Translations under genes and position numbers: made by a program
Shown here: positions 41,218-60,922 of the stretch, piece by piece
Layout: every line of letters begins with the position of its first letter
How positions within the stretch are numbered: the stretch's first letter is position 1
NCBI GenBank assembly: GCA_030285985.1
Contig: CP127384.1
Span: 1,662,501 to 1,726,500, forward strand
Length of the DNA stretch: 64,000 bases
Origin: Aquidulcibacter paucihalophilus
Lineage (GTDB): Bacteria; Pseudomonadota; Alphaproteobacteria; Caulobacterales; Caulobacteraceae
Reading direction: 5' to 3'
The notes under the pieces: model-generated
The model's database searches: none
Told to the model about the DNA's origin: nothing
The model's input: only the letters and a program-made list of their open reading frames with translations

Positions 41218-41832
41218 GTGGCAATCTATGCTCGTGTCTCGACGGCCGACAAGAACCAGACCGTCGAGAACCAACTCCGCGATCTCTTGGCCGTGGCTGC
41301 GCGCCAAGACTGGGAAATCGTCGCCACCTTCACCGACGAGGGCATCTCGGGTTCGAAGGGCCGGGACAAGCGCCCTGCGTTCGATGCGCTGTTGAAGGGC
41401 GTGGCTCGGCGCGACTTCGATCAGATCTTGACGTGGAGCGTGGACCGCCTCGGCCGGAGCTTGCCTGACCTTGTGACCTTCCTGAACGACATTCAGTCCA
41501 AGAATGTGGACTTGTATCTGCACCAGCAGGGGGTCGACACTTCGACCCCCAGCGGCCGCATGATGTTCCAGATGCTTAGCGTCTTCGCCGAGTTCGAGCG
41601 AGCCATCATCCGTGAGCGAATCTTGGCTGGGCTTCGCAGGACCAACCGAAAGAGCGGTCGCAGACCGATGTCGGACGACCGTGTCAAGGCGATTAAGGCC
41701 TCGCTGCTCAGCGGCCAGGGCATTCGCGCCACCGCTCGGCAACACAGCGCGTCGACGACAACCGTCACGTCGATTAAGCGCACAATTTGTTCCTTTGATG
41801 TACAGCAAGTTGCCGCTGATGTCTTCGGCTAG
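41218..41832 (+). CDS. Serine recombinase (resolvase/invertase family)
   Basis: This 204-residue protein has the catalytic Ser in AIYARVSTADKNQTVENQL, then LTWSVDRLGRSLPDLV, QGVDTSTPSGRMMFQMLSVFAEFERAIIRERI with the E helix, and a C-terminal helix-turn-helix (GIRATARQHSASTTTVTSIKR). It resembles Tn3-type resolvases or DNA invertases. Start GTG 41218. No res sites could be located by eye. Confidence 0.9.
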   Translation: MAIYARVSTADKNQTVENQLRDLLAVAARQDWEIVATFTDEGISGSKGRDKRPAFDALLKGVARRDFDQILTWSVDRLGRSLPDLVTFLNDIQSKNVDLYLHQQGVDTSTPSGRMMFQMLSVFAEFERAIIRERILAGLRRTNRKSGRRPMSDDRVKAIKASLLSGQGIRATARQHSASTTTVTSIKRTICSFDVQQVAADVFG

Positions 41833-42022
41833 GCCTCAAACGACAAGAGTGCCTCTGGACCGCTGGGAGCGGGCATGATCGTCCGTAATTGACTCATAGC
41901 GGCGGTTGGGAACGTCCGCTCTCAGGCATCTGCCGTGGGTGGTCCGGCCGAACCTCTATTGGCGCATTCCGGTCTCGGGAGATGTAGAGTGGATAGCGGG
42001 GCCTCTTTCGTGGGAGGTGGCC

Positions 42023-42649
42023 ATGGGCCAGCCCGATCTATTCCGAATGCCCCGCAAACCTTGGAACGCTGGCCGCATGACTGGAGCGAAAGCTCCCCTC
42101 AAGCCGAAGCATATTTGGGCGATCCGCCAGCATTTGAAGTCGCTCGGGTCGGTCCGGGACCTGGCGATGTTCAACACCGCTCTGGACGCAAAACTCAGGG
42201 GCTGCGACCTCGTCAAGCTGCGGCTCGCCGATATCGCCCACGGCGGCGTCATTCGTCAGCGCTCCACAATCGTCCAGCAGAAGACCGGTCGACCCGTACC
42301 GTTTGAGATCACAGAGCCAGCGAGGGAAGCGCTGACGCAATGGCTCGACCTCCGGGGTCGGCGGCCGGACGAGTGGCTGTTCCCAAGCCGCAGCCACGCC
42401 GGCCGACATATCGGAACGCGCCAGTACGCGCGCCTCGTCGATCGCTAGGTTCGCATGATCGACCTCAACCCGAGTGGGTACGGCACGCACAGTCTGCGAC
42501 GAACCAAAGTGGCGCTGATTTACAAGAAGACCGGAAACCTCCGCGCCTGCCAGCTGCTCCTAGGTCACGGCAAGCTGGAAAGCACAGTCAGATACCTCGG
42601 CATCGAGGTCGACGACGCTCTGGAGATTTCCGAGCAGATCGATCTGTAG
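42023..42649 (+). pseudogene. Tyrosine recombinase split by an in-frame amber codon
   Basis: The frame from ATG 42023 (after GGGAGGTGG) encodes a compact integrase (KPKHIWAIRQHLKSLGSVRDLAMFNTALDAKLRGCDLVKLRL). It meets TAG at 42446-42448 and then continues in the same frame with MIDLNPSGYGTHSLRRTKVALIYKKTGNLRACQLLLGHGKLESTVRYLGIEV. In homologues of this style the position is usually Trp, so TGG to TAG is the simplest change. All catalytic residues lie beyond the first half, so the truncated product would be inactive unless TAG is read through. Confidence 0.85.
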
Positions 42650-43489: not shown

Positions 43490-43873
43490 TCAGACCTCGT
43501 CAACGGCCGCTCGAAGATGCTCACCCACCCTTCGCGCGTGGCCCAGCAATTCGGCATTGTCGATCGCGCTCATCGAAGCCGCGGGATCAACGGCGAAAAC
43601 CTCGACGCCGCCTTCGGTCTGCTGGACGACCACATTGCAGGGCAGCATGACTCCGACATGGGGCTCCATCTTCAGGGCCTCATGCGCCATGACCGGGTTG
43701 CAGGCACCAAGGATCCGGTAGGGGCGGAAGTCCTCTCCGATCTTCGCCTTCAGCGTGGCATGGATATCGATCTCTGTGAGGACTCCGAAGCCGTGCTTCT
43801 GAAGCGCTGCGCGGGTGCGCTCCACGATGGTCTCGAAGTCGCCAGAAATCAGGCGGGCATGGAAATAGCTCAT
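43490..43873 (-). CDS. DUF302 family protein
   Basis: This 127-residue protein matches DUF302: SGDFETIVERTRAALQKHGFGVLTEIDIHATLKAKIGEDFRPYRILGACNPVMAHEAL and MLPCNVVVQQTEGGVEVFAVDP. The Cys in GACNP and LPCNV are typical. Members accompany sulfur and metal resistance genes; the reaction is unknown. It overlaps the ArsR gene by four bases and ends the operon. Confidence 0.88.
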   Translation of the reverse strand: MSYFHARLISGDFETIVERTRAALQKHGFGVLTEIDIHATLKAKIGEDFRPYRILGACNPVMAHEALKMEPHVGVMLPCNVVVQQTEGGVEVFAVDPAASMSAIDNAELLGHARRVGEHLRAAVDEV

Positions 43874-44214
43874 GATGTCCGGTCCTCGGGCTTGTCGCGG
43901 TAGATGTCGCAGAGCAGGGCGATAATGCGGGCCGCCGCCGGATCGGAGATGCCGTAGTAGATCGTCTGGGCGTCACGCCGCGGGGCAATGACACCGGCGT
44001 CACGCAGGCGGGCGAGATGCTGTGAACAGGCCGACTGCGACAGGCCCGCATAGGCGGCCAAATCTCCGACCGCGCACCCGCCCTCGCTGAGCCGGCACAT
44101 CAGCATCAACCTCTGTTCGTTGGCGAACAGCCGCAGGAGCCGGGCGGCCGGAGCCGCGCTGGCCTCGAGTTCGGCCAGGGCGGCGGCGTCCGGCGTGGGG
44201 AGGGCATCGCTCAT
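43870..44214 (-). CDS. ArsR-family repressor of BigR/SqrR type
   Basis: This 114-residue winged-helix regulator has LLRLFANEQRLMLMCRLSEGGCAVGDLAAYAGLSQSACSQHLARLRDAGVIAPRRDAQTIYYGI. Cys40 and Cys102 sit where SqrR (Cys41, Cys107) and BigR form a tetrasulfide bridge on sulfane sulfur, so it probably senses sulfide. Cys47 and Cys63 are extra. It should bind the inverted repeat at 48501-48520 and repress both divergent units. It overlaps neighbours by four bases on each side. Confidence 0.85.
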   Translation of the reverse strand: MSDALPTPDAAALAELEASAAPAARLLRLFANEQRLMLMCRLSEGGCAVGDLAAYAGLSQSACSQHLARLRDAGVIAPRRDAQTIYYGISDPAAARIIALLCDIYRDKPEDRTS

Positions 44215-47200
44215 GGCGTCTCTTCCGCAGGTCCGGGCACGGCCAGGGGGCGGCCGTCGTCCTTCAATGCGATATAGATGGCCGGGATCACCAGCACCGT
44301 GAGAATCGTCGAGGAAATCAGGCCGAACAGCAGGGAGAGCGCCAGCCCCTGGAAGATCGGGTCGAACAGGATCACCGCCGCCCCGATCATGGCCGCCAGC
44401 GCCGTCAGCAGGATCGGCTTGAAGCGGATGGCACCGGCCTCCAGCAGGACCTCACGAAGGGGCCGTCCGGGCGTTCGGGCGTGGCGGATGAAGTCGACCA
44501 GCAGGATCGAATTCCGGACGATGATCCCCGCCAGGGCAATGAAGCCGATCATCGAGGTGGCGGTGAAGGGCGCGCCGAACAGCATATGGCCGATGACGAT
44601 GCCGATCAGGGTGAGAGGGATGGGCGTCAGGATCACCAGCGGTATACGGAAGTCCTTGAACTGGGCGACGACCAGAACATAGATCCCCAGAAGGGCCACG
44701 CCGAACGCGGCACCCATGTCGCGGAAGGTCACCCAGGTGATCTCCCATTCGCCGTCCCACAGGACGGTGGGGACGGTCTCGTCCGTCGGCTGACCGTTGA
44801 GCCGGACCTCGGGGCGCGGCAGCCCTTTCCAGTCGTGGGCCTTGATGGCCGCGTCGATGGCGAGAATGCCGTAGATCGGGGCCTCGAACTGGCCGGCCAG
44901 TTCGGCGGTGACCATTTCAGCGGCGCGGCCGTCGCGGCGGTAGACGGGCCAGCTGGCCAGTTCATGACGGACCTCGACGATCTCGCCCAGTTCGACCAGC
45001 CGCCGGCCGCCGTCGAGCGTTGTCACGGCCACAGGCATGACAGCCATCTGTTCGCTCCAGGTCCGGGCCGACTGGGGCAGGCGTACGGCGATCTCCAGCG
45101 GAGTCCGCTCATCATCGCGCGCGGCATAGCCGAGAATCTGGCCACCCATGACGGCGGCGATGGAGTCGTGCACCTCGCGCTCGGAAAGGCCAAACCGCTC
45201 GATCTTTTCGCGGTCCGGGATCAAGCGCAGGACCGGGCGGCGGACGCCGTAGCTGTTGTCCACGTCGACGACCGAGGATTCGGCCCGGAACAGGGTCTCC
45301 AGCTCGGCGGCCACCGCGCGACGGGTGGCGGGATCGGGGCCGTAGACCTCGGCCAGCAGGGTCGCCAGCACGGGTGGTCCCGGGGGGGCCTCGACCACCT
45401 TGATCGACGACCCCGCCGGCAGCGGCAGATCGGCCAGGCGGCGGCGCAGGTCGAGGGCGATGGCGTGACTGCTGCGCCTGCGCTCACCCTTGGGGGCGAG
45501 CATGACCGTCAGATCGCCCTGTTCCGCGCCCGCGCGCAGGAAGTAGTGGCGCACCAGACCGTTGAAATTGAACGGCGCCGCGGTCCCGGCGTAGCTTTCC
45601 AGTGACTCCACCTCGCGCAGCGTTCCGGCCACGGCCGCAGCCCCGGCCAGGGTGCGCTCGGTGACCTCGAGACTGGTTCCCTCGGGCATGTCCAGCACGA
45701 CCTGGAGCTCGGACTTGTTGTCGAACGGGAGCAGTTTCACCGGCACGGCCCGGAAGGCGAACATCGACATCGACAGCAGGGTGGCGAGGCCGACGACGAT
45801 CAGGAAGATCCAGGCGCTCCGGCGCGAGCGGACGACTGGCGTAGCGACCTTGCGATAGAGGCGGCCCAGCTTTCCCTCGCCGTGCTCGTGACCGCGGCCA
45901 GCGACAAGGGTCTTTCGCGCGAACCGGATCATCAGCCACGGCGCGATGACCACGGCCACGAAGAACGAGAAGATCATGGCGGCGGAAGCGTTGATCGGGA
46001 TCGGCGCCATATAGGGCCCCATCAGGCCCGAAACGAACAGCATGGGCAGCAAGGCGGCGACCACGGTCAGGGTGGCGACCACGGTCGGGTTGCCGACCTC
46101 GGCCACCGCCTCGACGGTGGCCTGGGCGCGGCTGCGGTCGTCGTTCATGGCCCAGTGGCGGGCGATATTCTCGATCATCACGATGGCGTCGTCGACGAGG
46201 ATGCCGATCGAGAAAATCAGCGCGAACAGGCTGACACGGTTGATGGTGTAGCCCATCAGGTTGGAGGCGAAGAGGGTGAGCAGGATGGTCGTGGGGATCA
46301 CCACCGCCGTCACCCCGGCCTCGCGCCAGCCGATGGCGAAACCGATCAGGATGACGATGGAGACCGTGGCGAGGCCGAGGTGCATGAGCAGCTCATTGGC
46401 CTTTTCATTGGCGGTCTCGCCGTAGTCGCGGGTCACGACGACCTCGAGTCCATCGGGGATCAGCGTCCCCTCCAGAGCCTCGACGCGCTGCATCACCCCG
46501 TGGGAGACGAGCACGGCATTGGCTCCCTGGCGCTTGGCTACCGCCAGGCTGACGGCCGGCGTGCGGCTCCAGCCGTCGCCGACGCGGGCGTAGTGGGCGG
46601 CGCGGGCCTGATCCTCCCGCGGGGCCTGAACGATGGTCGCCACGTCGCGCAGATAGACGGGCTCGCCGGCCATCGAGCGGACGGTCAGCAGGGCGGCGTC
46701 GTCCGGCGCGGCCAGCCGCTCGCCCGAGCGCAGGGCCACGGCCTGGCCCTGGTCGCGGAAGGTACCGGCCGGGAAGCTGCGGTTGGCATGGGCGACGCCT
46801 TCCAGCTCGGCAGACAGGGCCACGCCGCGCGCGGCCATGCGGGCGGGATCGGGCTCAACCCGAATCTCGGACGGGCGGCCGCCGACGATGAAGGTCAGGC
46901 CGACGTCCTCGACCTTGCTGATCTCGGTGCGCAGGCGGGCGGCGACATCGTACAGGGCCTGGTCGCTCCAGCGCCCGGCCGCGTCGGCGCGCGGCGTCAG
47001 GGTCAGGACCATGGCGGGGACGTCATTGATGCCCCGGGTGACGATCTGCGGCTCCGACACCCCGACGGGAATGGAATCGTAGTTGGCGCGTACCTTCTCG
47101 TGCACTCGAACCGCCGCATCGTCGGGGTCCGAGCCGACCAGGAACCGGGCCGTGACCATGACCTGGTCGTCCTGCACCTGGGTGTAGACGTACTCCACCC

Positions 47201-47441
47201 CGTCGATGCTGCGGACAATGGCCTCCAGAGGCTTGGCCGCCAGTTCTGTGGCGTCGGAGGCGCTCATGCCGGGCGCGGCGACCATGATGTCAACCATAGG
47301 CACGCTGATCTGTGGCTCTTCCTCGCGGGGGATCGACAGCACGGCCATCAGGCCCACGGCGATCGCCGCCAGCAGCATCAGGGGAGTCAGGGGCGAATTG
47401 AGCGTAGCTTTCGTCAGCCGTCCGGACAGGCCGAGGTTCAT
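44211..47441 (-). CDS. RND efflux transporter, inner-membrane permease
   Basis: This 1076-residue proton-driven pump subunit has twelve membrane helices, two large periplasmic loops and the TM4 proton relay in SIGILVDDAIVMIENIARH. The opening (LMAVLSIPREEEPQISVPMVDIMV) is typical of the branch found with sulfide genes. No outer-membrane factor gene lies nearby. It overlaps the adaptor gene and the repressor gene by four bases each, so one transcript is expected. Substrate unknown. Confidence 0.92.
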   Translation of the reverse strand: MNLGLSGRLTKATLNSPLTPLMLLAAIAVGLMAVLSIPREEEPQISVPMVDIMVAAPGMSASDATELAAKPLEAIVRSIDGVEYVYTQVQDDQVMVTARFLVGSDPDDAAVRVHEKVRANYDSIPVGVSEPQIVTRGINDVPAMVLTLTPRADAAGRWSDQALYDVAARLRTEISKVEDVGLTFIVGGRPSEIRVEPDPARMAARGVALSAELEGVAHANRSFPAGTFRDQGQAVALRSGERLAAPDDAALLTVRSMAGEPVYLRDVATIVQAPREDQARAAHYARVGDGWSRTPAVSLAVAKRQGANAVLVSHGVMQRVEALEGTLIPDGLEVVVTRDYGETANEKANELLMHLGLATVSIVILIGFAIGWREAGVTAVVIPTTILLTLFASNLMGYTINRVSLFALIFSIGILVDDAIVMIENIARHWAMNDDRSRAQATVEAVAEVGNPTVVATLTVVAALLPMLFVSGLMGPYMAPIPINASAAMIFSFFVAVVIAPWLMIRFARKTLVAGRGHEHGEGKLGRLYRKVATPVVRSRRSAWIFLIVVGLATLLSMSMFAFRAVPVKLLPFDNKSELQVVLDMPEGTSLEVTERTLAGAAAVAGTLREVESLESYAGTAAPFNFNGLVRHYFLRAGAEQGDLTVMLAPKGERRRSSHAIALDLRRRLADLPLPAGSSIKVVEAPPGPPVLATLLAEVYGPDPATRRAVAAELETLFRAESSVVDVDNSYGVRRPVLRLIPDREKIERFGLSEREVHDSIAAVMGGQILGYAARDDERTPLEIAVRLPQSARTWSEQMAVMPVAVTTLDGGRRLVELGEIVEVRHELASWPVYRRDGRAAEMVTAELAGQFEAPIYGILAIDAAIKAHDWKGLPRPEVRLNGQPTDETVPTVLWDGEWEITWVTFRDMGAAFGVALLGIYVLVVAQFKDFRIPLVILTPIPLTLIGIVIGHMLFGAPFTATSMIGFIALAGIIVRNSILLVDFIRHARTPGRPLREVLLEAGAIRFKPILLTALAAMIGAAVILFDPIFQGLALSLLFGLISSTILTVLVIPAIYIALKDDGRPLAVPGPAEETP

Positions 47442-48472
47442 CGGGCGCGCTCCGGAGCCAGGACGACATCGCCGACGGCGAGCCCCGACAAGACCTCGAC
47501 ACGATCCGTGCCGACAGGACCCGCCAGCTGGACCGGTGCCTCGCTGACGCGACCGGCGCGGTCGACGGTCCGGACGAAATCGATGCCGTAGCGGGTGGAG
47601 ACGAAGCGGCGCGGCACGACCAGCGCGCGCCGCTGGCCCACGGGAACCTGCACGGTCACGCGCTGGCCCACCCGCTCGCTGGTCAGGCCGGCGACGGAGA
47701 TGTCCGCCGTGGTCCGCCCGGCGATGGACGCGGGATAGACTTGGGTGATGGTCCCGACGCCGGCACCGGGCAAATCCCCGGGGGAGGCCACGACAGTCTG
47801 GCCGACCCGCAGGTTCCGACCCTGGGCCTCCGGCAGTTCGAGGCGCAGGACGAGGGGGCCCGCGGTGATGGTCGCGACCGACTGACCGGCGCTGACCACC
47901 GAGCCGGAAGGCACATCGGCGGTCAGGACCCGCCCTGAGGTGGGCGCGAGGATACTTCCCTGGGCGCCGGTTTCGGCGCTGGCCGAACGCTGGGCCCGCG
48001 CGGCACGGACCTGGGCGTCGGCGGCCTGGGACGCGGCCTGGGCCTGATCGAGCCTGGCTTGGGCGTAGAAGCCGCGATCAAAAAGGCTCTGCACGCGCGA
48101 CAGGTCCCCCCTCGCCCGCACCGCCTCGGCCTCGGCCACCGCCACCTGGGCCCCGAGGGCGGCGGTCTCCAACCCCACGCGGGCATCGACGACGACACCG
48201 ATGACCTGCCCCTGACGGACCATGTCGCCCTCGCGCACATTCAGCCGCACGAGCGTGCCGGGGATGCGCGCCCGGGCCTCGCCGAGATCGCGGGAGGCGA
48301 CCACGGCCGAGGCCGGCTTGACCGCATCGATCGTCTGTTCAGCGACCGTCAGACGTTCTCCCCGCGCGGGCGCGGTCGGCGCGACCTCGGGCTCGCCGCC
48401 GCAGGCCGACAGTCCACCGACCAACAGGGTGGCGGAAGCGAAAGCGGCGAACAGGGCCTTGGGCGTCTTCAT
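47438..48472 (-). CDS. RND efflux periplasmic adaptor lipoprotein
   Basis: This 344-residue membrane fusion protein has a lipobox (GGLSAC, Cys24) and the biotin-like/lipoyl hairpin (IPGTLVRLNVREGDMVRQGQVIGVV paired with GSILAPTSGRVLTADVPSGSVVSAGQ), with a coiled hairpin between. It links the permease to an outer-membrane channel. It is the first gene of the four-gene operon and lies 28 bases from the operator. Confidence 0.9.
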   Translation of the reverse strand: MKTPKALFAAFASATLLVGGLSACGGEPEVAPTAPARGERLTVAEQTIDAVKPASAVVASRDLGEARARIPGTLVRLNVREGDMVRQGQVIGVVVDARVGLETAALGAQVAVAEAEAVRARGDLSRVQSLFDRGFYAQARLDQAQAASQAADAQVRAARAQRSASAETGAQGSILAPTSGRVLTADVPSGSVVSAGQSVATITAGPLVLRLELPEAQGRNLRVGQTVVASPGDLPGAGVGTITQVYPASIAGRTTADISVAGLTSERVGQRVTVQVPVGQRRALVVPRRFVSTRYGIDFVRTVDRAGRVSEAPVQLAGPVGTDRVEVLSGLAVGDVVLAPERAR

Positions 48473-48500
48473 CAGAGAAACCTTATGTAAGACTGCTCTA

Positions 48501-48520
48501 ATATTAGTTCATGCTAATAT
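48501..48520. promoter_or_regulatory. Inverted-repeat operator for the ArsR-type repressor
   Basis: ATATTAGTTCATGCTAATAT has 7-bp arms around a 6-base centre. It stands in the divergent intergenic region between the RND adaptor and the SQR gene, is AT-rich in GC-rich surroundings, and overlaps TAATAT promoter-like sequence. Binding by the BigR-like protein is inferred. Confidence 0.75.
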
Positions 48521-48564
48521 GATTGCAAGCCTTGGAACTGTGCTCCCGGTGCCGGCCTCCAGCC

Positions 48565-48578
48565 TTGATCCCGATCAA
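48565..48578. promoter_or_regulatory. FNR/FixK box upstream of SQR
   Basis: TTGATCCCGATCAA is a perfect match to the TTGAT-N4-ATCAA consensus for FNR/FixK-type regulators. It lies 60 bases before the SQR start codon, and a fixK-like gene is 2 kb downstream. Confidence 0.75.
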
Positions 48579-48637
48579 GGCGCGGTCGCCCCGGCGGCGC
48601 AGGATCAGATCTTCACGACGGCTCAAGGAGATCGCGC

Positions 48638-49951
48638 ATGGATCGGCCCACCATCGTCATTCTGGGCGCAGGCCTCGGCGGCACCATCGCCGCCTATGAG
48701 CTGCGCCACGTCCTCGGCGACCGCGCGCGGATCGTCATGGTGTCGAAAGGCGACATCTTTCATTTCACGCCCTCCAACCCCTGGGTGGCGGTGAGCTGGC
48801 GCAAGCGCGAAGCCATTGAGGTCAGCCTGCCGGAGGTGATGAAGCGCAAGGGCGTGGAGTTCATCAACGTCGCAGCCACCGGCATCCGCCCCGCTGAAAA
48901 GGACGTCGACCTAGCCGATGGCCGGTCGCTTCACTACGACTACCTGGTCATCGCTACCGGGCCTGACCTGGCCTTCGACGAAATCCCGGGCCTCGGCCCC
49001 GACGGACATACCGTCTCGATTTGCCATGTCGACCATGCCGTGAAGGCGGCCGAGGCCTTCGACGAATTTGTCAGGAACCCCGGCCCGATTGTGGTCGGGG
49101 CGGTCCAGGGTGCCTCCTGCTTCGGTCCCGCCTATGAGTTCGCCATGATCCTCGATACCGAGCTGCGCCGCCGGAAGGTGCGCGACAAGGTGCCGATGAC
49201 CTTTGTCACCTCGGAACCCTACATCGGCCACCTCGGCCTCGACGGGGTCGGCGACACCAAGGGGCTGCTGGAAAGCGAAATGCGCCAGCGCCACATCAAA
49301 TGGGTCACCAACGCCCGGGTGAAGAGTGTCGAGGCCTGCCTGATGCACGTCGAGGAGATCGGCGAGGACGGCGCGGTCAAGGCAAACCATGACCTGCCCT
49401 TCGCCTACTCCATGATGCTGCCGGCCTTCCGCGGGATCGAGGCCGTGCGTGGGATCGAGGGACTCACCAATCCGCGCGGCTTCATCCTCGTCGACAAGCA
49501 CCAGCGCAATCCGACCTGGCCGGACATCTTCGCCCTCGGCGTCGGCATCGCCATTCCGCCGACCGGCCCCACGCCGGTGCCCGTCGGCGTGCCCAAGACT
49601 GGCTTCATGATCGAGAGCATGGTCTCGGCCATCTCGGCCAATCTGAAGCAAATTCTCGACGGTCGGGAGCCGACGTTCGAGGCCAGCTGGAACGCCATCT
49701 GCCTGGCCGATTTCGGCGACGGCGGCGTCGCCTTCATGGCCCAGCCGCAGATCCCGCCCCGCAACATCAACTGGTCCGCTAGCGGCCGCTGGGTGCACGC
49801 CGCCAAGGTCGCCTTCGAGGGCTACTTCCTGCACAAGGTCCGAAAGGGCCAGGCCGAGCCGCTCTACGAGAAGCTGGCCCTCGATCTGATCGGCGCCCAC
49901 AAGCTGCGCCCGACCACCCGGTCCACCCCCGCAAAGGAGCCCAGGGCATGA
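48638..49951 (+). CDS. sqr: Sulfide:quinone oxidoreductase
   Basis: This 437-residue FAD enzyme oxidises sulfide and passes electrons to quinone at the membrane. The FAD motif is TIVILGAGLGGTIAAYEL. The three Cys used in catalysis are present at 129 (VSICHVDH), 161 (QGASCFGPAYEF) and 355 (NAICLADFGD), close to Cys128, Cys160 and Cys356 of the Acidithiobacillus enzyme. TPVPVGVPKTGFMIESM and the membrane-binding C-terminus (GRWVHAAKVAFEGYFLHK) complete the pattern. AAGGAGATC precedes the ATG. It overlaps the DUF2892 gene by four bases. Confidence 0.92.
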   Translation: MDRPTIVILGAGLGGTIAAYELRHVLGDRARIVMVSKGDIFHFTPSNPWVAVSWRKREAIEVSLPEVMKRKGVEFINVAATGIRPAEKDVDLADGRSLHYDYLVIATGPDLAFDEIPGLGPDGHTVSICHVDHAVKAAEAFDEFVRNPGPIVVGAVQGASCFGPAYEFAMILDTELRRRKVRDKVPMTFVTSEPYIGHLGLDGVGDTKGLLESEMRQRHIKWVTNARVKSVEACLMHVEEIGEDGAVKANHDLPFAYSMMLPAFRGIEAVRGIEGLTNPRGFILVDKHQRNPTWPDIFALGVGIAIPPTGPTPVPVGVPKTGFMIESMVSAISANLKQILDGREPTFEASWNAICLADFGDGGVAFMAQPQIPPRNINWSASGRWVHAAKVAFEGYFLHKVRKGQAEPLYEKLALDLIGAHKLRPTTRSTPAKEPRA

Positions 49952-50151
49952 GCCTCGATCGCGCCGTCATGATGTTCGCCGGCTTTATGGTGCTGGTCAG
50001 CGTGGCGCTGACCCTTTGGGTTCATCCGGCCTGGATGTGGCTGACGGTGTTCGTCGGCCTCAACCTGCTGCAGGCTTCGATCACCCGGTTCTGCCCGGCC
50101 GCCATGCTGTTCCGGAAGCTGGGCGTGCGGCCGGGCACGGCCTTCCGGTAA
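49948..50151 (+). CDS. DUF2892 (YgaP-tail-like) membrane protein
   Basis: This 67-residue protein has two membrane helices with the DUF2892 pattern DRAVMMFAGFMVLVSVAL and WLTVFVGLNLLQASITRFCPAAMLFRKLG. Its conserved F-C-P near the second helix is seen in the family, often fused to rhodanese domains. It may aid sulfur handling at the membrane. Its ATG overlaps the sqr stop. Confidence 0.88.
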   Translation: MSLDRAVMMFAGFMVLVSVALTLWVHPAWMWLTVFVGLNLLQASITRFCPAAMLFRKLGVRPGTAFR

Positions 50152-50619
50152 GCCGGCCATCGCAAGTGGGGTTTGAACGGCCGCTGCTGGCGTTCTCGTT
50201 GTCGGATCGGCAGGCGGGAGTCCTCAGACGTCACGGAAACCCAGCCTGAACCGCAAGTATAGTCACGCGGCATGACGGATCACGTCCGCCGGAAACTGGT
50301 GGCGCTTGAACGAAATCGGCGTCACGAAAAATCATCCCCATCAGCGGAATAGGCCGCCCTAAGTGGAGACAAGTTAGTGTTAGACTGACAGCATCTACTG
50401 CTCAAAAATCCGGTCGAGGCGTCCTGCTAACAGGGGAAATTACCAGATGTTCGCTGCGGGTGGAGGCTTTCGCATTGGAGACGGATTGTTGAATGACTGA
50501 CAGCACCCTCCATTGCATCCGTATCCGTACTTAGTGGCACGTCCTTAGGGACCGAACCTGAATGATCGGGGCCGGCGGCCCGGCCTATGTTTCGCTCCGT
50601 CCACTGATGGGGTTTGGCC
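50152..50619. other. Gene-free region before fixK
   Basis: No credible gene was found. It presumably carries the fixK promoter; no clear FNR/FixK half-sites were seen, in keeping with control by phospho-FixJ, whose site is too loose to assign by eye. Confidence 0.5.
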
Positions 50620-51258
50620 ATGACTCAGCTTACGTCCATTGTTCCTGCCGGCCCGGCAACCTTCGCCGGGGACTGGGCTGGTGCCGTGCGCCTGACCTTT
50701 CGTCCGGGCGAGGAAATCTACGCGCAGGATGAGGATGCGGATCTGGTCTATCGCGTGATCCGCGGCTCGGTGCGGACCATCCACCTACAGTCGGATGGCC
50801 GTCGCCAAGTGGGTGATTTCTACTATGAGGGCGACATGATCGGCGTTGATGTCGGCGCTTCGCATCGATTCTCGGCCGAGGCGCTGACTAACTGCGAGGT
50901 TCTGGCGCTTCGTCGATCCGGTTCGGCGGCCTATGAAAAAGGCCATGTTGAGCGCGTGATGTGGGCGGCTACGATCAGCGAATTGCAGCGGACCCAATCC
51001 CATTTGCTCCTGCTGGGTCGGGCGACAGCCTGTGAGAAGGTGGCCCGGTTCCTGATGGACATTGCCAACCGATACACAGGTGAATTCGTCATACTGCCGA
51101 TGAGCCGGCAGGATATGGCCGACTATCTGGGCCTGACGATCGAGACCATCTCTCGCATGCTGAGTCGTCTGCAGGCCGCTGGCGTGATCGAGTTTTCGGG
51201 CGCGCGCAAATATCGGATCCGGAGTCCAGGTTGCCTCTCGGGCATGGCTGCCACCTAA
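50620..51258 (+). CDS. fixK: Crp/Fnr family regulator, FixK type
   Basis: This 212-residue protein has a cyclic-nucleotide-like beta roll (RLTFRPGEEIYAQDEDADLVYRVIRGSVRTIHLQSDGRRQVGDFYYEGDMIGVD) and a C-terminal helix-turn-helix ILPMSRQDMADYLGLTIETISRMLSRLQAAGVIEF. The N-terminus lacks the Cys cluster of oxygen-sensing FNR, so it is FixK-like. The recognition helix residues E-x-x-S-R are those that read TTGAT-N4-ATCAA. fixL and fixJ follow on the same strand. Confidence 0.88.
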   Translation: MTQLTSIVPAGPATFAGDWAGAVRLTFRPGEEIYAQDEDADLVYRVIRGSVRTIHLQSDGRRQVGDFYYEGDMIGVDVGASHRFSAEALTNCEVLALRRSGSAAYEKGHVERVMWAATISELQRTQSHLLLLGRATACEKVARFLMDIANRYTGEFVILPMSRQDMADYLGLTIETISRMLSRLQAAGVIEFSGARKYRIRSPGCLSGMAAT

Positions 51259-51280: not shown

Positions 51281-52792
51281 ATGCTAAGCTTGTCTCGTGA
51301 TCGCTACCCGCGGTCGAGCCGAGAGGTGCCGGTGTATCTGCGATCTTCCGTTCTGGAACCGATGTCGCGCCGCAGGGGCTATATCGCCGTGGGCGTCGGA
51401 ACCCTGGTCGCAGTCTTCGTGAGGCTCGGCCTGAGCCTGCAGTTCGACGATCGCACCTTTTTCGTCATTTATGCCCCGTTCGTTCTGGTAGCGGCCTGGC
51501 TGGGCGGTCGAGGGCCCGCGCTCCTGGCGACGATGATCGGTCTCGGGATCAGCGCGGCGACGCTTCAGGAGAAGCTCTGGCTCAGCCCGGCCAATATGGT
51601 CGACGCTGCCGCCTTTGTAATCCTCGGCACCTTCATTTCAGTCGCCGGCGAACGTCTGTGGCGCAACAGCATGGAGGTTGAAACCCGGCAGGCTCACCTG
51701 CACTCCATCCTAGAGACGGTACCCGAAGCCATGATCGTGATCGACGCCGAGGGAAAGATGCAGTCGTTCAGCGCGGCCGCCGCCCGCCTTTTCGGATGGA
51801 CTCCCGAGGAAGCCATCGGATCGAATGTCAGCATCCTGATGCCCGAGCCGTACAGGTCGGCGCATGGCCGCCATCTGGCCCGCTATCTCAACACAGACGA
51901 GCGGCGGATCATCGGCGTCGGACGGGTTGTGGTCGGCGAGCGGAAGGACGGTTCGACCTTTCCCATGGAGCTGGCGGTGGGCGAAGCCCGCGCACAGGGC
52001 GGCCGCCACTTCACCGGATTCGTCCGCGATCTGACCGAACGGCGCGACCAGGAGCGCCGGATTCAGGAGTTGCAGTCGGAACTGATGCATATGTCGCGCC
52101 TGACCGCCATGGGGGAGATGGCGTCATCGCTGGCCCATGAGCTGAACCAGCCCTTGTCCGCCATCGCCAGCTATATGAAGGGGTCCGTCACCCTGCTGGA
52201 GTCCGAGCAGCCTGATCTGCCCAAGCTTCAGGTGGCGCTTGATCGCGCGGGTGATCAGGCCCTGCGCGCCGGTGACATCATCAAACACCTGCGCGAGTTC
52301 GTCGCCAAGGGCGAGACCGAGCACACGCTCGAGGATCCCGCCAAACTGATCGAGGAAGCCAGCGCCCTGGCGCTGGTGGGCGCCAGGGACAAGGGCGTCC
52401 GGATCGATCTCCGGCTGGACCGGAACCTCGGCCAGGTGGTCGTGGACAAGGTCCAGATCCACCAGGTCGCCGTGAATCTCATACGCAACGCAATCGACGC
52501 AATGGCAGATGCACCCGACCGGGAGCTCGAGATCGCGGCCCGGTTGGATGACCCACGTACCATAAAGGTCAGCGTCGCCGACAGCGGACCTGGCCTTGAA
52601 CCCTCGGTCCGGGAGCGTCTGTTCCAGCCTTTCGTAACCACAAAGGCCCAGGGGATGGGGATCGGATTGTCTATTTGCCGGACCATCGTCGAGGCTCATG
52701 GTGGGCGGATATGGGCAGAAGATAGACCCGGCGGTGGTACGATCTTCAACTTCACCTTACCTCGGGCCGATGGGGAGATCGCCAATGACTGA
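51281..52792 (+). CDS. fixL: Oxygen-sensing histidine kinase FixL
   Basis: This protein of up to 503 residues has four N-terminal membrane helices (about 34-125) and a heme-binding PAS domain (about 140-255). His195 in YRSAHGRHLARY is the expected heme ligand, followed by ERRIIGVGRVVVGERKDGSTFPMEL. The H-box has His286 in SSLAHELNQPLSAI, then the ATPase N, G1 and G2 boxes (NLIRNAIDAM, DSGPGL, GMGIGLSIC). Low oxygen should activate it to phosphorylate FixJ. The start may be 51281 or the ATG at 51362. It overlaps fixJ by eight bases. Confidence 0.92.
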   Translation: MLSLSRDRYPRSSREVPVYLRSSVLEPMSRRRGYIAVGVGTLVAVFVRLGLSLQFDDRTFFVIYAPFVLVAAWLGGRGPALLATMIGLGISAATLQEKLWLSPANMVDAAAFVILGTFISVAGERLWRNSMEVETRQAHLHSILETVPEAMIVIDAEGKMQSFSAAAARLFGWTPEEAIGSNVSILMPEPYRSAHGRHLARYLNTDERRIIGVGRVVVGERKDGSTFPMELAVGEARAQGGRHFTGFVRDLTERRDQERRIQELQSELMHMSRLTAMGEMASSLAHELNQPLSAIASYMKGSVTLLESEQPDLPKLQVALDRAGDQALRAGDIIKHLREFVAKGETEHTLEDPAKLIEEASALALVGARDKGVRIDLRLDRNLGQVVVDKVQIHQVAVNLIRNAIDAMADAPDRELEIAARLDDPRTIKVSVADSGPGLEPSVRERLFQPFVTTKAQGMGIGLSICRTIVEAHGGRIWAEDRPGGGTIFNFTLPRADGEIAND

Positions 52793-53384
52793 ATGCCTTC
52801 ATGTCATCGATGACGATGCCAGGTTGCGCGAGGCGCTCGCCTTTCTGCTTGAGGTCAATGGGATCAAGGCGCGCTTCTATGAAACGGGCAATGCCTTTCT
52901 CGACGCCCTGCCCGTCGAGGAAGGATGTCTGCTGACGGACGTCCGGATGCCGGGCATCACCGGGCTTGAGCTTGTTCGGGAGTTGAAAAGGCGCAGCATC
53001 GACCTGCCCGTTATCGTCATGACGGGCCATGGAGACATTTCCCTGGCCGTGGAGGCGATGAAGGCCGGCGTGAGCGACTTCATTGAGAAGCCCTTCAACG
53101 ACGAGGTTCTGATATCCGCTCTTCATGCGGCCTGTGAGCGCCGGAAGGATAAGACGGGGCCAGACGCCGCCCGGCAGGCGGCGGAGTTGCGGTTGGCCTC
53201 GCTGTCGCCCCGCGAACGTGAGGTCCTGACGGGCGTCGTCGAGGGAAAACTCAACAAGATCATCGCGTTCGAACTCGACATAAGTCCGCGCACCGTCGAG
53301 ATTTACCGCGCAAACCTGATGTCGAAGACCGGCGCTCGAAACATCTCCGAACTGATGCGGATCGCGCTGGCGGCCGGCTACTGA
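52785..53384 (+). CDS. fixJ: Response regulator FixJ
   Basis: This 199-residue protein has a receiver domain (VIDDDARLREA, phospho-acceptor Asp52 in LLTDVRMPG, Thr80 in VIVMTGHGD, Lys102 in IEKPF). A LuxR-type DNA-binding domain follows (SLSPREREVLTGVVEGKLNKIIAFELDISPRTVEIYRANLMSKT). Phosphorylated by FixL, it should activate fixK and related genes. The start ATG lies inside the end of fixL. Confidence 0.93.
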   Translation: MTECLHVIDDDARLREALAFLLEVNGIKARFYETGNAFLDALPVEEGCLLTDVRMPGITGLELVRELKRRSIDLPVIVMTGHGDISLAVEAMKAGVSDFIEKPFNDEVLISALHAACERRKDKTGPDAARQAAELRLASLSPREREVLTGVVEGKLNKIIAFELDISPRTVEIYRANLMSKTGARNISELMRIALAAGY

Positions 53385-56078: not shown

Positions 56079-59000
56079 TTATTGAGCGCCGGCGCCGAAC
56101 CTGATGGTCACGCTGCCGTAGACAGCCTGGTCATCAATGCCGTCGCCGAAGCGACCCGAGTAGCCGATCCTCCCGGTCACCCGGTCCGAGAAGGCGCCCG
56201 TCAGACTGAGACCCGCCAGGAACGAGCCGCGCTCAACGGTCGGCGACTGAACGGTGAAGTCGCTGCCCGCTGGAGCATCCGCGAACCGGGCCATCACATC
56301 GAACTCCGCGTCGCCCAGGTCACTGCGGTAGGCGATGCGGGCCTCGGGGATGATCGACCCCATGCGGCCCGTCCACTTCACACCGGCCAGAAACGACGTC
56401 TGGGACGCCGACTGGTCTGCGTAGGCGAGATTGGCTCCGGGCACGCCGGTTTCGGTGAATGCGCCCAACTCGGTGTCGGAGTAGTCCAGGGCAACGAACG
56501 GCGTCAGCCATGTGCCCTGCACCGGTATGCGGGCACCGGCTTCGGCGTAGAGTGAAAGGGTGTCGGTGTCCGGCGTGCCCGCTGCTGTTCCGACCGTGCT
56601 CAGGATGCCGATGGACCGGATGCTGGCACCGCTCAGCTGCGTGAAGTTGCCGATGCCACGCAGATAGTAGGCACCATTATCATATGACGCCCGCAATCCG
56701 AGCAGCCAGCCGTCAGCTTCGATCCGGCCATTCTGGCGGTCAAAGTCGACCTCCAGGTCACGATAGCCGACGTATCCGCCGACCCTGGTGTCGTTCATGA
56801 CATGGTCCAAGCCGACAATCGCGAACTGTTGCTTGGCATCGGACCCCGGCGCGTTGGCGTCGCCATCAAGGTTGGCGCTGTTGAGGCCGCCAACCGTCCA
56901 AAGTCGGAACCCGGCTTCCGGATTGCGGCAGCCATCGATACCTTCAGGGCTGTTCAGGCAGTCCGACTGATCGGCGATGGCGGTGTTCAGTTGCTGGCTG
57001 CCGTTCCGCAGTGACTGGAGATATCCCGCCGTCTGGGCGCCGGTGAGCTGGTCCAGCGCCAAGGGGTAGTCCGTGGCATCCAGCAGGAACAGGTTTGCGA
57101 GCATGCCGGCGAACGGGCCCGTCAGCGCCGGGTTGTAGACTGCCTCGATACCGCCGCCGACCGCGGCCTGATTGCCCGTCAGGCCCGATACGGCGCCGAA
57201 CCCGATACGCGTGATGGTCAGGTCGACGTTGGCTCCGCTGTCATAGACGGCTACCGGAACCAGCAGGGGGCTGCCCGTGTTGGTGACGACGCTCGAGAAG
57301 GTTCCGTTGAGCACGTTGGCATCGATGATGTTGTCGAAGCTGTAGAAATTCCCGAACAGGCCGTTTGATGTCGACAGGTTGAGCTGCAGCGTTCCAGCCA
57401 AGGTGACCGTATTGGCCGCAATCACCTGGATGGGCGACGGGATGGCCAGGGCGCCGAGCAATCCCGAGGGTGCCCCGGAGCCGCCGAACGACAACGGCAT
57501 GTCCAGCACAAGCGTGCCACCCGACGCGACGGTGAAGGTATTTACGTAACCACCGGCAGGACCGTCATAGGATGGGTTGGTGATGCGTGGATTCACAAGG
57601 CGCAGCGAGCCGCCGCTGGCGATGGTCAGCGAACCCTCATACTCCCCGTTCGGATTGATCACACCGTCGAGAATGGTCGTGCCGCCTGCGATGGTGATGC
57701 TGTCATCGGCCGAGATATCGATGTTTCCGTAGATGGAGCCGCTGCCGAGGAGGCGGATGTCGACCGCGTTCGGGGCGAGGGTCGTGTCGATCGCCAGCCC
57801 GTGTGTCCAGGTCAGGCCGCCGTCTGTGCTCTCGCGGGCGGTGATGGAGCCGCCATTGTTGATGATGGTGAAGACTGCGCCCGGCGGCGGCACGATGGGG
57901 GAAGCGTCGAAGTCCCGCACCAGGATGCCCGTGGCCGAGGCGGCGCCGACATTCGTACGCGCCGACACGGTGATTGAACCGGTGTTGGTCAGGGTGGCGG
58001 TGTTAACGGCCGACATAAAGTCCATGCCGACCGCCGTGGCGCCCAGGGGCAGTTCGTCGAGCGAGCCAGGAATGGCCAGGCTGGCCGCGGAGGCGTCCAT
58101 CAGGATTGAGCCCGTGGCGCTTGCTGTGACGGTCAGGCTGCCGGAGTTGGTCACAGCGCCGGACAGGCTGTTGGCGGCCTCCTCTTCCCAGACGACCGGA
58201 CCTTCTTCATCCGAGCCATGGCCGCCGTTAGTGGGGCCGCCGTGACCTTCGGTGCCGCCATGGCCGCCGCCTTCATCGCCCTCGACCACTGCGGTCGGAT
58301 CGTAGGTGCCGTAGAAGCCAAAGCCGAGCGCCCCGGCTGTCGCCGGGCCGGCGACCTGGGCGTCAGCACTGACAACCACGGTCCCGCTATTGGTCACCGC
58401 CAGCGTCAGCGGATCGCCAAACGCTGTGTAGCCGATCGAACCGGCCGATGCTGAGCCGCTGGTCTCGCCGAACATGCCGGCGGTCGATTGGACCCTGAAG
58501 GAACCCGTATTGGCGAACGTCGCCAGGGCGGTATTGCCGGTGACCTCCTGCTCGACGCCAATCGCGCCAGCCTCCACCGTTCCCGAAAGTCCGGTCGCAG
58601 ACGCGCTGCTGCTGGCCAGGAAAGAGCCGGCGTTGGTGAAGGTGGCGCTGGCGGCGCCTGTGGTCGTGGCCTGCTGCAGCACAGCCGGATGCAGATCCGA
58701 GCTGGCGTTGGCGAGCTCGCCGGTCGCCGAGGCGGACCCGATGACATTGATCACGCCGCTGGCGCCGTTGGTGAGGGTCACGCCTGCGATGCGGTCCTCG
58801 ATCTGGGGAGAGCCTTCAGCCTCGGCCACCTGCAGAATGGCGGATTCTATGGTTGCGATGGCTCCGGACTGGGAGCCTTCGCCCTGGGAACTCGCCACGC
58901 TCGTGGCGCCGAAATCAATCCGGCCGTTGTTGGTGGCGGTGGCGATCGAGATGCCGCCGTCCGAACCGTTGGACTGGACCTTGGTGACGAGCAGGCTGCT

Positions 59001-60191
59001 GGCGACCGCATTGCTGTTGGCGAGGGTCGTGCCGTTGGCGGTCGCGATGGACGTCCCGGTGATGCGGCCGGCAGCGGCGTTGGTGAAGATCACGGTGGAG
59101 CTGTCGTCCCCCGAACCATTGGACGCGGTCCGCAGGTGGAACAGGCCATGTTCGCCGCCGCCCAGTGTGGACTCGGCGGTCGCCGCACCCGCGCTGGACG
59201 AGGCCAGGGCCGTCGCGCCAGCCGTCAGCGTTCCGCTGTTGGAGAAGGTGGTGCTGGTGACGCCGTCGCCGCCGCCATTGGCCTGGGCCCGCATGAACAG
59301 GGCTTCGCCGGCCGTAGCGCGCGCGAGCGCGTCTCCGACCGAATTGGCCGTGGCGGTGCCGTTGAACAGGATGGTTCCGCTATTGGTGATGGACGTGCTG
59401 GCGGACCCGCCGCCGCCGCCTTCGACGGTGGCTTCCTGATGCAGACCGCCGACGGCGCTCGCCGTGGCCCGCGCGGCGATGTCGCCGTGGAAGTCCGTTC
59501 CCGTCGCGCTTGCGCTCGCGCCGAGATCAAACAGACCGGTATTGATCAGCGAGGCCGAGACGGTTGCATTTGGTGCCGTCGCAATCTGTGTGACCGCGTC
59601 CAGAAGATCGGCGTTCGCGATCGCCTGCCCTTCGTCGTTGGTGGCCGTGGCCAGGGCCCTGATCGACACCGAGCCGGCATTTGCGATGGAAATGATGGCG
59701 TCAACGTCGCCCGGCGCGGCGCTTGGGTCCAGAATCGACAGCGGCGACGTCTCCACTTCACCCACGCTCAAGCGTTGCACGATGGTGCCGCTCGCGGTCG
59801 ATGCGACGCTGGCGGTGGCGGCCGGCGTCCCGGCGTCCGTGACGCCGAGTGTGAGCACCTGGCCGGCGTTGATGACGTACACCGGATCGACGTCCAGTCC
59901 GGGGCTGACGACCGGTTGGGCCAGAATCGACAGCGGCGTCGTCGCCATTTCGCCAACGCTCAGACGTTTCGCGATCTCTCCTTGCTCGGTCGTTGCGACA
60001 GCGGCTGTAGAGGCCAGCGTCCCACCGTCGGTGACGCCCGTCAGGGAAACCGGGTCAGCGGCGGCGACGAATTCCGGGTCGAAATTGAGTCCGGGGCTCA
60101 CGATCGCCTGGGCCAGGGCTGGCGAGGCGATGATCAGCGCCAAGGCCGACACGCCGACGGACAGGCGAAGGTATCTTGAATGCTTGGGCAT
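56079..60191 (-). CDS. Large autotransporter with C-terminal beta-barrel
   Basis: This 1370-residue protein has a signal peptide (MPKHSRYLRLSVGVSALALIIASPALAQ in outline), a long passenger of N-x-G-T/S-I-x-x-x-A-x-A repeats, and a C-terminal autotransporter barrel from about residue 1095. The barrel has alternating strands and the final VYGSVTIRFGAGAQ. Two near-identical 60-residue units occur at the N-terminus. A Gly/His/Glu-rich insert (near 58190-58300) may bind metal. It should be anchored in or released from the outer membrane; the role is probably adhesion. ATG 60191 follows AGAGGGGG. Confidence 0.9.
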   Translation of the reverse strand: MPKHSRYLRLSVGVSALALIIASPALAQAIVSPGLNFDPEFVAAADPVSLTGVTDGGTLASTAAVATTEQGEIAKRLSVGEMATTPLSILAQPVVSPGLDVDPVYVINAGQVLTLGVTDAGTPAATASVASTASGTIVQRLSVGEVETSPLSILDPSAAPGDVDAIISIANAGSVSIRALATATNDEGQAIANADLLDAVTQIATAPNATVSASLINTGLFDLGASASATGTDFHGDIAARATASAVGGLHQEATVEGGGGGSASTSITNSGTILFNGTATANSVGDALARATAGEALFMRAQANGGGDGVTSTTFSNSGTLTAGATALASSSAGAATAESTLGGGEHGLFHLRTASNGSGDDSSTVIFTNAAAGRITGTSIATANGTTLANSNAVASSLLVTKVQSNGSDGGISIATATNNGRIDFGATSVASSQGEGSQSGAIATIESAILQVAEAEGSPQIEDRIAGVTLTNGASGVINVIGSASATGELANASSDLHPAVLQQATTTGAASATFTNAGSFLASSSASATGLSGTVEAGAIGVEQEVTGNTALATFANTGSFRVQSTAGMFGETSGSASAGSIGYTAFGDPLTLAVTNSGTVVVSADAQVAGPATAGALGFGFYGTYDPTAVVEGDEGGGHGGTEGHGGPTNGGHGSDEEGPVVWEEEAANSLSGAVTNSGSLTVTASATGSILMDASAASLAIPGSLDELPLGATAVGMDFMSAVNTATLTNTGSITVSARTNVGAASATGILVRDFDASPIVPPPGAVFTIINNGGSITARESTDGGLTWTHGLAIDTTLAPNAVDIRLLGSGSIYGNIDISADDSITIAGGTTILDGVINPNGEYEGSLTIASGGSLRLVNPRITNPSYDGPAGGYVNTFTVASGGTLVLDMPLSFGGSGAPSGLLGALAIPSPIQVIAANTVTLAGTLQLNLSTSNGLFGNFYSFDNIIDANVLNGTFSSVVTNTGSPLLVPVAVYDSGANVDLTITRIGFGAVSGLTGNQAAVGGGIEAVYNPALTGPFAGMLANLFLLDATDYPLALDQLTGAQTAGYLQSLRNGSQQLNTAIADQSDCLNSPEGIDGCRNPEAGFRLWTVGGLNSANLDGDANAPGSDAKQQFAIVGLDHVMNDTRVGGYVGYRDLEVDFDRQNGRIEADGWLLGLRASYDNGAYYLRGIGNFTQLSGASIRSIGILSTVGTAAGTPDTDTLSLYAEAGARIPVQGTWLTPFVALDYSDTELGAFTETGVPGANLAYADQSASQTSFLAGVKWTGRMGSIIPEARIAYRSDLGDAEFDVMARFADAPAGSDFTVQSPTVERGSFLAGLSLTGAFSDRVTGRIGYSGRFGDGIDDQAVYGSVTIRFGAGAQ

Positions 60192-60922
60192 CTTGTTGTT
60201 CCCCCTCTTTCGAGATTGATGGCGCGACACTGTCGCGGACCCCGCCAACCACTTAAGGTGTTGACCGGTCGATCAGCCGTTACGAGTCGGCGAGGTCGAG
60301 CTCGTTGATTTTGGTCAAGACCTCCGGAATTCGGAGTTATCTGGCACAGCCATGAGTTTTCCCGGCCGTGCGTCCTGTGCCTCTGCCAGCTCGCACTCAT
60401 GCCGCTGACCAGCCAGGTGCCCAGCCTCGCGCCTGTCGCGAAATCGACCAACTTGTTCCGGTAGATTCCACAGCCTCACGCCATGCCGGATAGGCACGAT
60501 TTCGCCGCACCTTCATCTTCGCTCGGCTGCCCCCGTGTGAATCACCACGGGCTTGTTGGGGGCTCGAGTTTCAATGCCGAGGCCTACTTCTGCGATCCTC
60601 GGTCACCGTGGCAGCGCGCCTCTAATGAGAACACCAGCCCGCTGCTGCGCCAGTACCGGCACCCTGGAACCGACCTTCCGCTGCAAAGCCAAGCCCGACT
60701 CAGCGGCATCGCCCATCAGCTCAACCCATGCCCGATAAAGACCTCGCTTACGGCACGCCAGCGGGAGCTTGCCGAGCTGTTGCGGCGAATGAGACGCCGA
60801 AAGCGGACTCGCCGGACGTCCGCTATGGGTCGGAAGCGGACTTTCGGCTGAATTTGGGAAGCGGACATCCTGAGGCCATGAGCGGTATGAGAATGCCACC
60901 AGCGCGCTCAAGGGAGGTGCCC
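60192..60922. other. Non-coding or decayed region
   Basis: Open frames here are poor in structure. The frame ending in MGRKRTFG near 60850 comes from reading through a copy of the interspersed repeat and is not a gene. A decayed element is possible. Confidence 0.5.
60818..60846 (+). repeat. Short interspersed repeat, copy 2
   Basis: CGTCCGCTATGGGTCGGAAG followed by CGGACTTTCG. This copy can fold, as GTCCGC and GCGGAC are complementary. Confidence 0.75.

Follow-up and report, generated by a model that had tools for sequence, protein, structure and literature searches.

How are sulfide sensing, efflux and low-oxygen control combined where the gene for sulfide:quinone oxidoreductase (sqr) lies back to back with an RND efflux operon in Aquidulcibacter paucihalophilus? 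The locus is part of a 64,000-nt stretch of contig CP127384.1 (positions 1,662,501 to 1,726,500; hereafter the window, whose numbering is used unless genome positions are indicated) in a 3.10-Mb single-contig genome, and its nearest named relatives at the sqr/pump locus are Brevundimonas. An initial annotation, made from the letters alone, had read the locus as one switch controlled jointly by a sulfide-sensing ArsR-family repressor and a FixK regulator. Our analysis makes it probable, though by no means assured, that the locus is a sulfide/sulfane-sulfur detoxification module under two control layers.

The pump operon runs on the minus strand in the order periplasmic adaptor (MFP), RND permease, ArsR repressor and DUF302 protein, each gene overlapping the next by 4 bp. 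Gene calls and overlaps therefore agree with the annotated position of the repressor gene inside an efflux operon that diverges from sqr. On the plus strand sqr was correctly read as divergent from the pump, but it heads a two-gene operon with a YgaP-like membrane gene (4-bp overlap), which is followed by FixK-, FixL- and FixJ-like genes. The two operons share a 165-bp spacer (48473-48637). The features are:

43490-43873, minus strand: DUF302 protein, 127 aa, last gene of the pump operon (PF03625, 91.3 bits)
43870-44214, minus strand: ArsR-family repressor, 114 aa, with Cys40 and a Cys102 shifted by one helix turn (PF01022, 48.3 bits)
44211-47441, minus strand: RND permease, 1076 aa (PF00873, 473 bits; best full-length PDB match 6vej, 211.5 bits)
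47438-48472, minus strand: RND periplasmic adaptor (MFP), first gene of the pump operon (TIGR01730, 122.7 bits against a cut-off of 94.9)
48485-48520, no strand assigned: putative tandem ArsR operator, ATATTAG-N6-CTAATAT at 48501-48520 plus a degenerate copy at 48485-48504 (2 mismatches), period 16 bp
48565-48578, no strand assigned: FNR/FixK box TTGATCCCGATCAA, predicted to be bound, centre 66.5 nt before the sqr ATG
48600-48605, plus strand: candidate -10 element CAGGAT of a putative FixK-dependent sqr promoter, a weak match (CAGGAT in 9/14 aligned rows)
48638-49951, plus strand: sulfide:quinone oxidoreductase (sqr), 437 aa (SQR chain 3sz0, E=2e-144, three cysteines aligned)
49948-50151, plus strand: YgaP-like transmembrane protein, 67 aa, co-operonic with sqr (PF11127, 51.8 bits)
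50614-51258, plus strand: FixK-type Crp/Fnr regulator, TTG start with an alternative ATG at 50620 (NF050806, 196.4 bits against a cut-off of 300)
51281-52792, plus strand: FixL-like PAS histidine kinase (NF041777, 531.1 bits against a cut-off of 850)
52698-53384, plus strand: FixJ response regulator (NF006900, 272 bits against a cut-off of 255)

Two sites in the shared spacer

The 20-bp inverted repeat claimed for the spacer is present at 48501-48520, but its 7-bp arms flank six unmatched bases and it is not a perfect palindrome; the degenerate copy starts 16 bp to its left and overlaps it. None of 5000 dinucleotide shuffles of the spacer contained the exact ATATTAG-N6-CTAATAT, while an unspecified 7-bp-arm repeat with a loop of 3-10 nt arose in 70 of 1000, so that the repeat would be weak without its conservation. 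The genome holds a single exact copy of the repeat. Its sole one-mismatch match (genome position 142315) lies between a gene of the metallo-beta-lactamase fold, which probably encodes a persulfide dioxygenase (PDO), and another ArsR gene that is followed by a YgaP-like rhodanese gene. Across 121 Brevundimonas genomes the operator (at most one mismatch) was found at 39 forward sites in 35 genomes, compared with 3 for the backward control. All 39 sites are at sulfur genes; they make up 37 loci, 16 of the sqr/MFP-RND type and 21 of the PDO/ArsR/rhodanese type, with none elsewhere, and the present genome has both types.

A wider comparison used the best 80 of 585 loci ranked by permease similarity, with order labels taken from record titles and the lineage of each locus. 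Regions upstream of sqr were available for 70 of them, after removal of L057, L122 and L124 (incomplete sqr start) and of seven loci without sqr. Within 260 bp upstream of sqr, ATAT-N12-ATAT is present at 56/70 loci (23/29 in Caulobacterales, 26/34 in Sphingomonadales and 7/7 in others; shuffle means 0.06, 0.13 and 0.00 respectively). In several loci two or three units, for example in L113 and L119, are spaced exactly 16 bp apart, which points to adjacent repressor dimers on the DNA. L113, L119, L121 and L123 each carry three units in strict 16-bp phase, an operator array.

The perfect TTGAT-N4-ATCAA box reported for the spacer was recovered at 48565-48578; it appeared in 2 of 5000 shuffles. 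Genome-wide there are five exact boxes (backward control 0) and 13 relaxed TTGAY-N4-RTCAA boxes (backward control 3). Eleven of these 13 fall at genome positions 1711065-1747646, a 36.6-kb stretch that starts with the sqr box and runs past the window end, which makes this 37-kb stretch a candidate low-oxygen regulon island. Genes of the stretch include those for a universal stress protein (UspA), an alcohol dehydrogenase, an E1 dehydrogenase and a cation ATPase. Also in the window, an open reading frame of 1383 aa (56079-60230) encodes an autotransporter domain (PF03797); a relaxed box at 60305 lies 75 bp before its first GTG.

Among the sqr-upstream regions the box (at most one mismatch) is present in 21/29 Caulobacterales, 2/34 Sphingomonadales and 0/7 others (shuffle means 0.17, 0.31 and 0.11), and 17 of the 21 Caulobacterales boxes are centred 59-78 nt before the sqr ATG. 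Since the operator occurs in both orders and the box mostly in Caulobacterales, the ArsR operator looks like the older layer, to which the FixK layer would have been added in Caulobacterales. The neighbouring FixK- and FixL-like proteins have the families given above as their best NCBIfam families listed, and FixJ exceeds its cut-off. The recognition helix of the FixK-type regulator was read as ..IETISR.., which we take to be comparable to that of FNR.

The arrangement of the two sites speaks against the annotated single switch. On the pump side the operator covers the interval 13-48 bp ahead of the start codon and is overlapped by a candidate promoter, TTGCAA-N16-TAATAT. For sqr alone would the FixK box stand at class-II spacing, the predicted sqr transcription start being at ~48613 (box centre 48571.5 plus 41.5). 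In a Brevundimonas-clade spacer alignment of 14 rows, 12 have the FixK box within one mismatch, and relatives lose the sites separately: i) in L046, where a 291-bp piece of sqr is left and the box is missing, the operator persists with 1 mismatch; ii) L049 keeps the operator and sqr, but not the box; iii) L080 keeps the box and sqr, but not the operator. Thus operator and FixK box behave as separate modules, and operator position, box spacing and independent site loss together suggest that two neighbouring promoters, with a repressor on the pump side and FixK on the sqr side, fit better than one joint switch.

We regard an integrated switch, with both ArsR and FixK acting at a single sqr promoter, as unlikely; sqr would then need both sulfide and low oxygen. 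Both sites do lie within the same 165 bp, ArsR could work at a distance via looping, and in some relatives a weak sqr-directed TTGCGC-N16-TAATAT overlaps the operator (alignment, by eye). But the left, -35-like motif of that element is gone in the window, the operator is centred at 48510.5, 61 bp away from the middle of the box and ~100 bp away from where a FixK-dependent start is predicted, and the separate losses in the three relatives also argue against a common promoter.

The repressor and its shifted cysteine

The repressor has cysteines at positions 40, 47, 63 and 102. Its predicted model (pLDDT, the predicted local distance difference test, 90.4) matches reduced SqrR (6o8l) without gaps, 92 residues (model 17-108 on 18-109) superposing at 0.9 A. 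It aligns Cys40 with SqrR residue 41 (Cys), Cys102 with residue 103 (Tyr) and Arg106 with residue 107 (Cys), the two SqrR cysteines presumably being those named Cys41 and Cys107. In both sequence and structure alignments Cys102 sits four residues, one helix turn, before the position of SqrR Cys107 and BigR Cys108, and the canonical place is taken by Arg106; a canonical SqrR/BigR cysteine pair, our starting assumption, is ruled out by these alignments. With its winged-helix fold, its helix-2 cysteine (Cys40 in 67/68 pump-linked rows) and its position beside sulfide/persulfide genes the protein resembles SqrR and BigR, and it scores 71.3 bits against the NCBIfam BigR equivalog NF040642, whose cut-off is 155. 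Hence the annotated BigR/SqrR-like repressor stands by conservation and context, and its Cys102 does not correspond to the second cysteine of SqrR and BigR. Since it is found at the Tyr103 position, the known SqrR/BigR sensing mechanism is not simply transferable. (For BigR residue 104, the available part of PMC5823870 names Trp, and the PDB chain has Tyr there.)

Among 68 ArsRs encoded directly behind the pump (a count that omits two L117 rows with masked residues), 63 have C40 and C102 and none of these has a cysteine at the canonical place; of the remaining five, three have Ser at 102, one is canonical (L091) and one is neither (L125). On the other hand, all 16 ArsRs near the same pump in 15 loci of the same class but other orders are canonical, with a cysteine spacing of 66 and not 62; one locus of the window's own order (L148) has a spacing of 63. 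Of the 120 protein-database homologs listed (out of 216), 118 carry the shifted pair and two the canonical one. A tree of 109 ArsRs has a 99/93 branch that separates all 68 rows labelled shifted, joined by five others, from SqrR, BigR, HlyU and YgaV. It was built on 114 columns, those of the cysteines among them, and rooted at the midpoint, and its branches are long; duplicates, rows whose length falls outside 85-135 aa and eight distant ArsRs had been removed. The shifted label requires at least four changes on this tree, a number compatible with one gain followed by losses, and a single origin of the shifted pair appears likely from these sequences. The second ArsR of this genome (genome 142360-142686), a paralog, has a canonical pair, Cys36 and Cys102.

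Cys102 might also take no part in sensing, the response running via Cys40 alone or Cys40-Cys47, or the sulfane-sulfur response being gone; we consider this improbable. It would fit the three pump-linked ArsRs with Ser at 102 (L066, L070, L087), at each of which a second, canonical ArsR is encoded beside sqr. At seven other loci with a second canonical ArsR the pump-linked protein keeps Cys102. C102 is found in 64/67 pump-side rows, tied twelfth of 114 positions, in a ranking whose rows were picked for C40 and no Cys at 106 (100% C40 by choice), and other helix 5 positions reach 25-70% except Leu101; moreover, sphingomonads retain C102 and mostly not C47. We tentatively propose, as a reading somewhat less likely than not, that the pump-linked ArsRs of Sphingomonadales and Caulobacterales form a separate reactive-sulfur sensor class. 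In this class a second cysteine one turn earlier, at the tyrosine of SqrR/BigR, may alter the reach of the sulfur bridge and the preferred inducer, and two paralogs with nearly the same operator in one cell may read different sulfur species. A description of the shifted pair was not found in the text available from PMC9995734, PMC9774250, PMC5823870, PMC10509353, PMC8960804, PMC5358917 and PMC12423496.

Pump-sqr linkage and a possible metal-sensing alternative

The linkage of sqr with the RND pump is backed by conservation and context. At 73/80 loci sqr lies upstream of MFP-RND on the opposite strand. In six of the seven loci without it (L062, L074, L075, L081, L095, L097) the contig breaks off within 1.6 kb of the pump genes, and the seventh (L067) has a YgaP-like gene in its place. 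Because the 80 loci had been chosen by permease similarity, a separate sample of 385 alphaproteobacterial genomes was taken (SQR at E<=1e-100, RND at E<=1e-200). SQR was found in 14 genomes, RND in 30 and both in 11, with 8/11 divergent within 2 kb; co-occurrence had a Fisher p of 2.9e-11, or 3.1e-8 without Caulobacteraceae. Fourteen of 20 RND loci without an adjoining sqr have a YgaP-like membrane gene or a BigR-like ArsR. The SQR itself shows full-length homology to 3sz0, including three cysteines which we take to be the active-site ones; the source organism of 3sz0 is, we assume, A. ferrooxidans. DUF302 follows ArsR at 9/80 loci, all in the Brevundimonas clade, and DUF302 genes also stand beside PDO-like or SQR genes in L064, L162 and L154.

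The permease scores below every NCBIfam cut-off listed, those for HAE-1 multidrug and HME metal pumps included (best 396.7 bits against 1250). An unusual proton-relay Arg in the permease (79/80 loci match the motif, all with Arg) was dropped as a distinguishing feature, since MexK has the same residue.

It is doubtful that the ArsR senses metal(loid) or metal-sulfide stress via Cys40, Cys47 and Cys102, with the pump exporting metals or metal sulfides and the sqr linkage reflecting metal-sulfide toxicity. Cys47 is present in 114/120 listed close homologs, same-fold metal sensors are among the PDB matches of the ArsR, and the authors of PMC5358917, in the portion available, propose metal-sulfide export by sulfide-induced RND pumps. 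However, sphingomonad pump-linked ArsRs keep C40 and C102 with Cys47 mostly missing, the permease is well under the CusA/CzcA cut-off (254 against 701 bits), and the operator is tied genus-wide to sulfur genes at every one of its sites. The ArsR sequence moreover lacks the CxC motif that we take to mark metal sensors.

At 41218-42448, 1-2 kb from the module end, the window holds a gene with a resolvase domain (PF00239, 153 bits) and a short open reading frame resembling phage integrases (PF00589, 30.5 bits). Together with the patchy occurrence of the operator in the genus (35/121 genomes), these genes suggest a mobile past of the module.

A proposed two-layer model and its precedents

In the two-layer model ArsR would, as the first layer, bind the 16-bp-phased tandem ATAT operator and repress the MFP-RND-ArsR-DUF302 operon. 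Per- or polysulfide would bridge Cys40 (helix 2) and Cys102 (helix 5), the repressor would leave the DNA, and derepression would yield pump, DUF302 protein and repressor, which amounts to autoregulation. As the second layer, the adjacently encoded FixLJ-FixK system would activate sqr and the YgaP-like gene from a class-II promoter with the box centre ~41 bp before the predicted start, and ArsR may also damp sqr via the shared operator. SQR would produce the sulfane sulfur that induces ArsR, and the RND pump most likely exports a toxic sulfide-oxidation product. The canonical paralog at the PDO/rhodanese locus has a near-identical operator, so that sites are probably shared by both repressors.

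Several observations weigh against this reading: i) the operator is present in just 35/121 Brevundimonas genomes; ii) 8/29 Caulobacterales loci lack the FixK box, and four Caulobacterales boxes lie at other distances (40, 40, 41 and 163 nt); iii) the FixK- and FixL-like proteins score below their NCBIfam cut-offs; iv) the pump-side TTGCAA-N16-TAATAT fits only 8/12 consensus bases, and a consensus sigma-70 promoter scan of 48400-48700 found none; v) 19/30 RND genomes lack this SQR, 3/14 SQR genomes lack the RND pump, and 6/20 RND loci without adjoining sqr have no clear sulfur partner (L140 has just a 22%-identity SQR match); and vi) Cys102 is away from the second-cysteine position of characterised sensors, the C40-C102 sulfur bridge is a proposal, and alternative pairings via Cys47 or Cys63 (86/120 listed homologs) exist.

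Adjoining FixL-, FixJ- and FixK-like genes and TTGAT-N4-ATCAA boxes are features of the FixLJ-FixK systems of Caulobacter and rhizobia, from which the present locus differs in having sqr as a predicted FixK target; a literature search combining FixK with sulfide quinone, with supplements and most subscription papers outside its coverage, found no paper. SqrR (Rhodobacter capsulatus), BigR (Xylella/Agrobacterium), YgaV (E. coli) and HlyU (Vibrio) form a persulfide-sensing ArsR cluster with which our repressor has in common the fold, the helix-2 cysteine and the linkage to sqr, rhodanese or persulfide dioxygenase. Unlike SqrR and BigR, it has its second cysteine four residues earlier, Arg (often Gly in relatives) at the canonical position, and a place on the opposite side of the tree. 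An ATTN-N8-NAAT operator skeleton is common to both, SqrR having ATTC-N8-GAAT in the available text of PMC9774250.

The pump-SQR linkage is already in print, as far as the accessible parts of PMC5358917 and PMC12423496 go. In Azospira suillum PS, Dsui_3440-3443 (unknown protein, RND pump, SQR, MFP) combine SQR and an RND pump as here; the operon showed high expression when H2S was being oxidised, Bar-seq implicated it as well, and its deletion left the H2S oxidation rate unchanged (PMC5358917). Those genes form one operon and are not divergent, the word ArsR is missing from the main text of that paper, and the likeness drawn here is one of gene content. The Hyphomicrobium denitrificans survey (PMC12423496, available part) reports RND pumps, sqr, pdo and rhodanese genes beside sulfane-sulfur ArsRs, and that organism has two related repressors; as the survey demanded both conserved cysteines, it would omit the shifted class.

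A fixed cysteine pair is the mark by which persulfide sensors are recognised, and screens of this kind would miss a conserved shifted-pair group. Such a group could serve as a natural experiment on what determines inducer preference. In Caulobacterales, though apparently not in Sphingomonadales, the module would bring sulfide detoxification under the control of a low-oxygen regulator; it also ties an RND pump to sulfide oxidation across a wide evolutionary distance.

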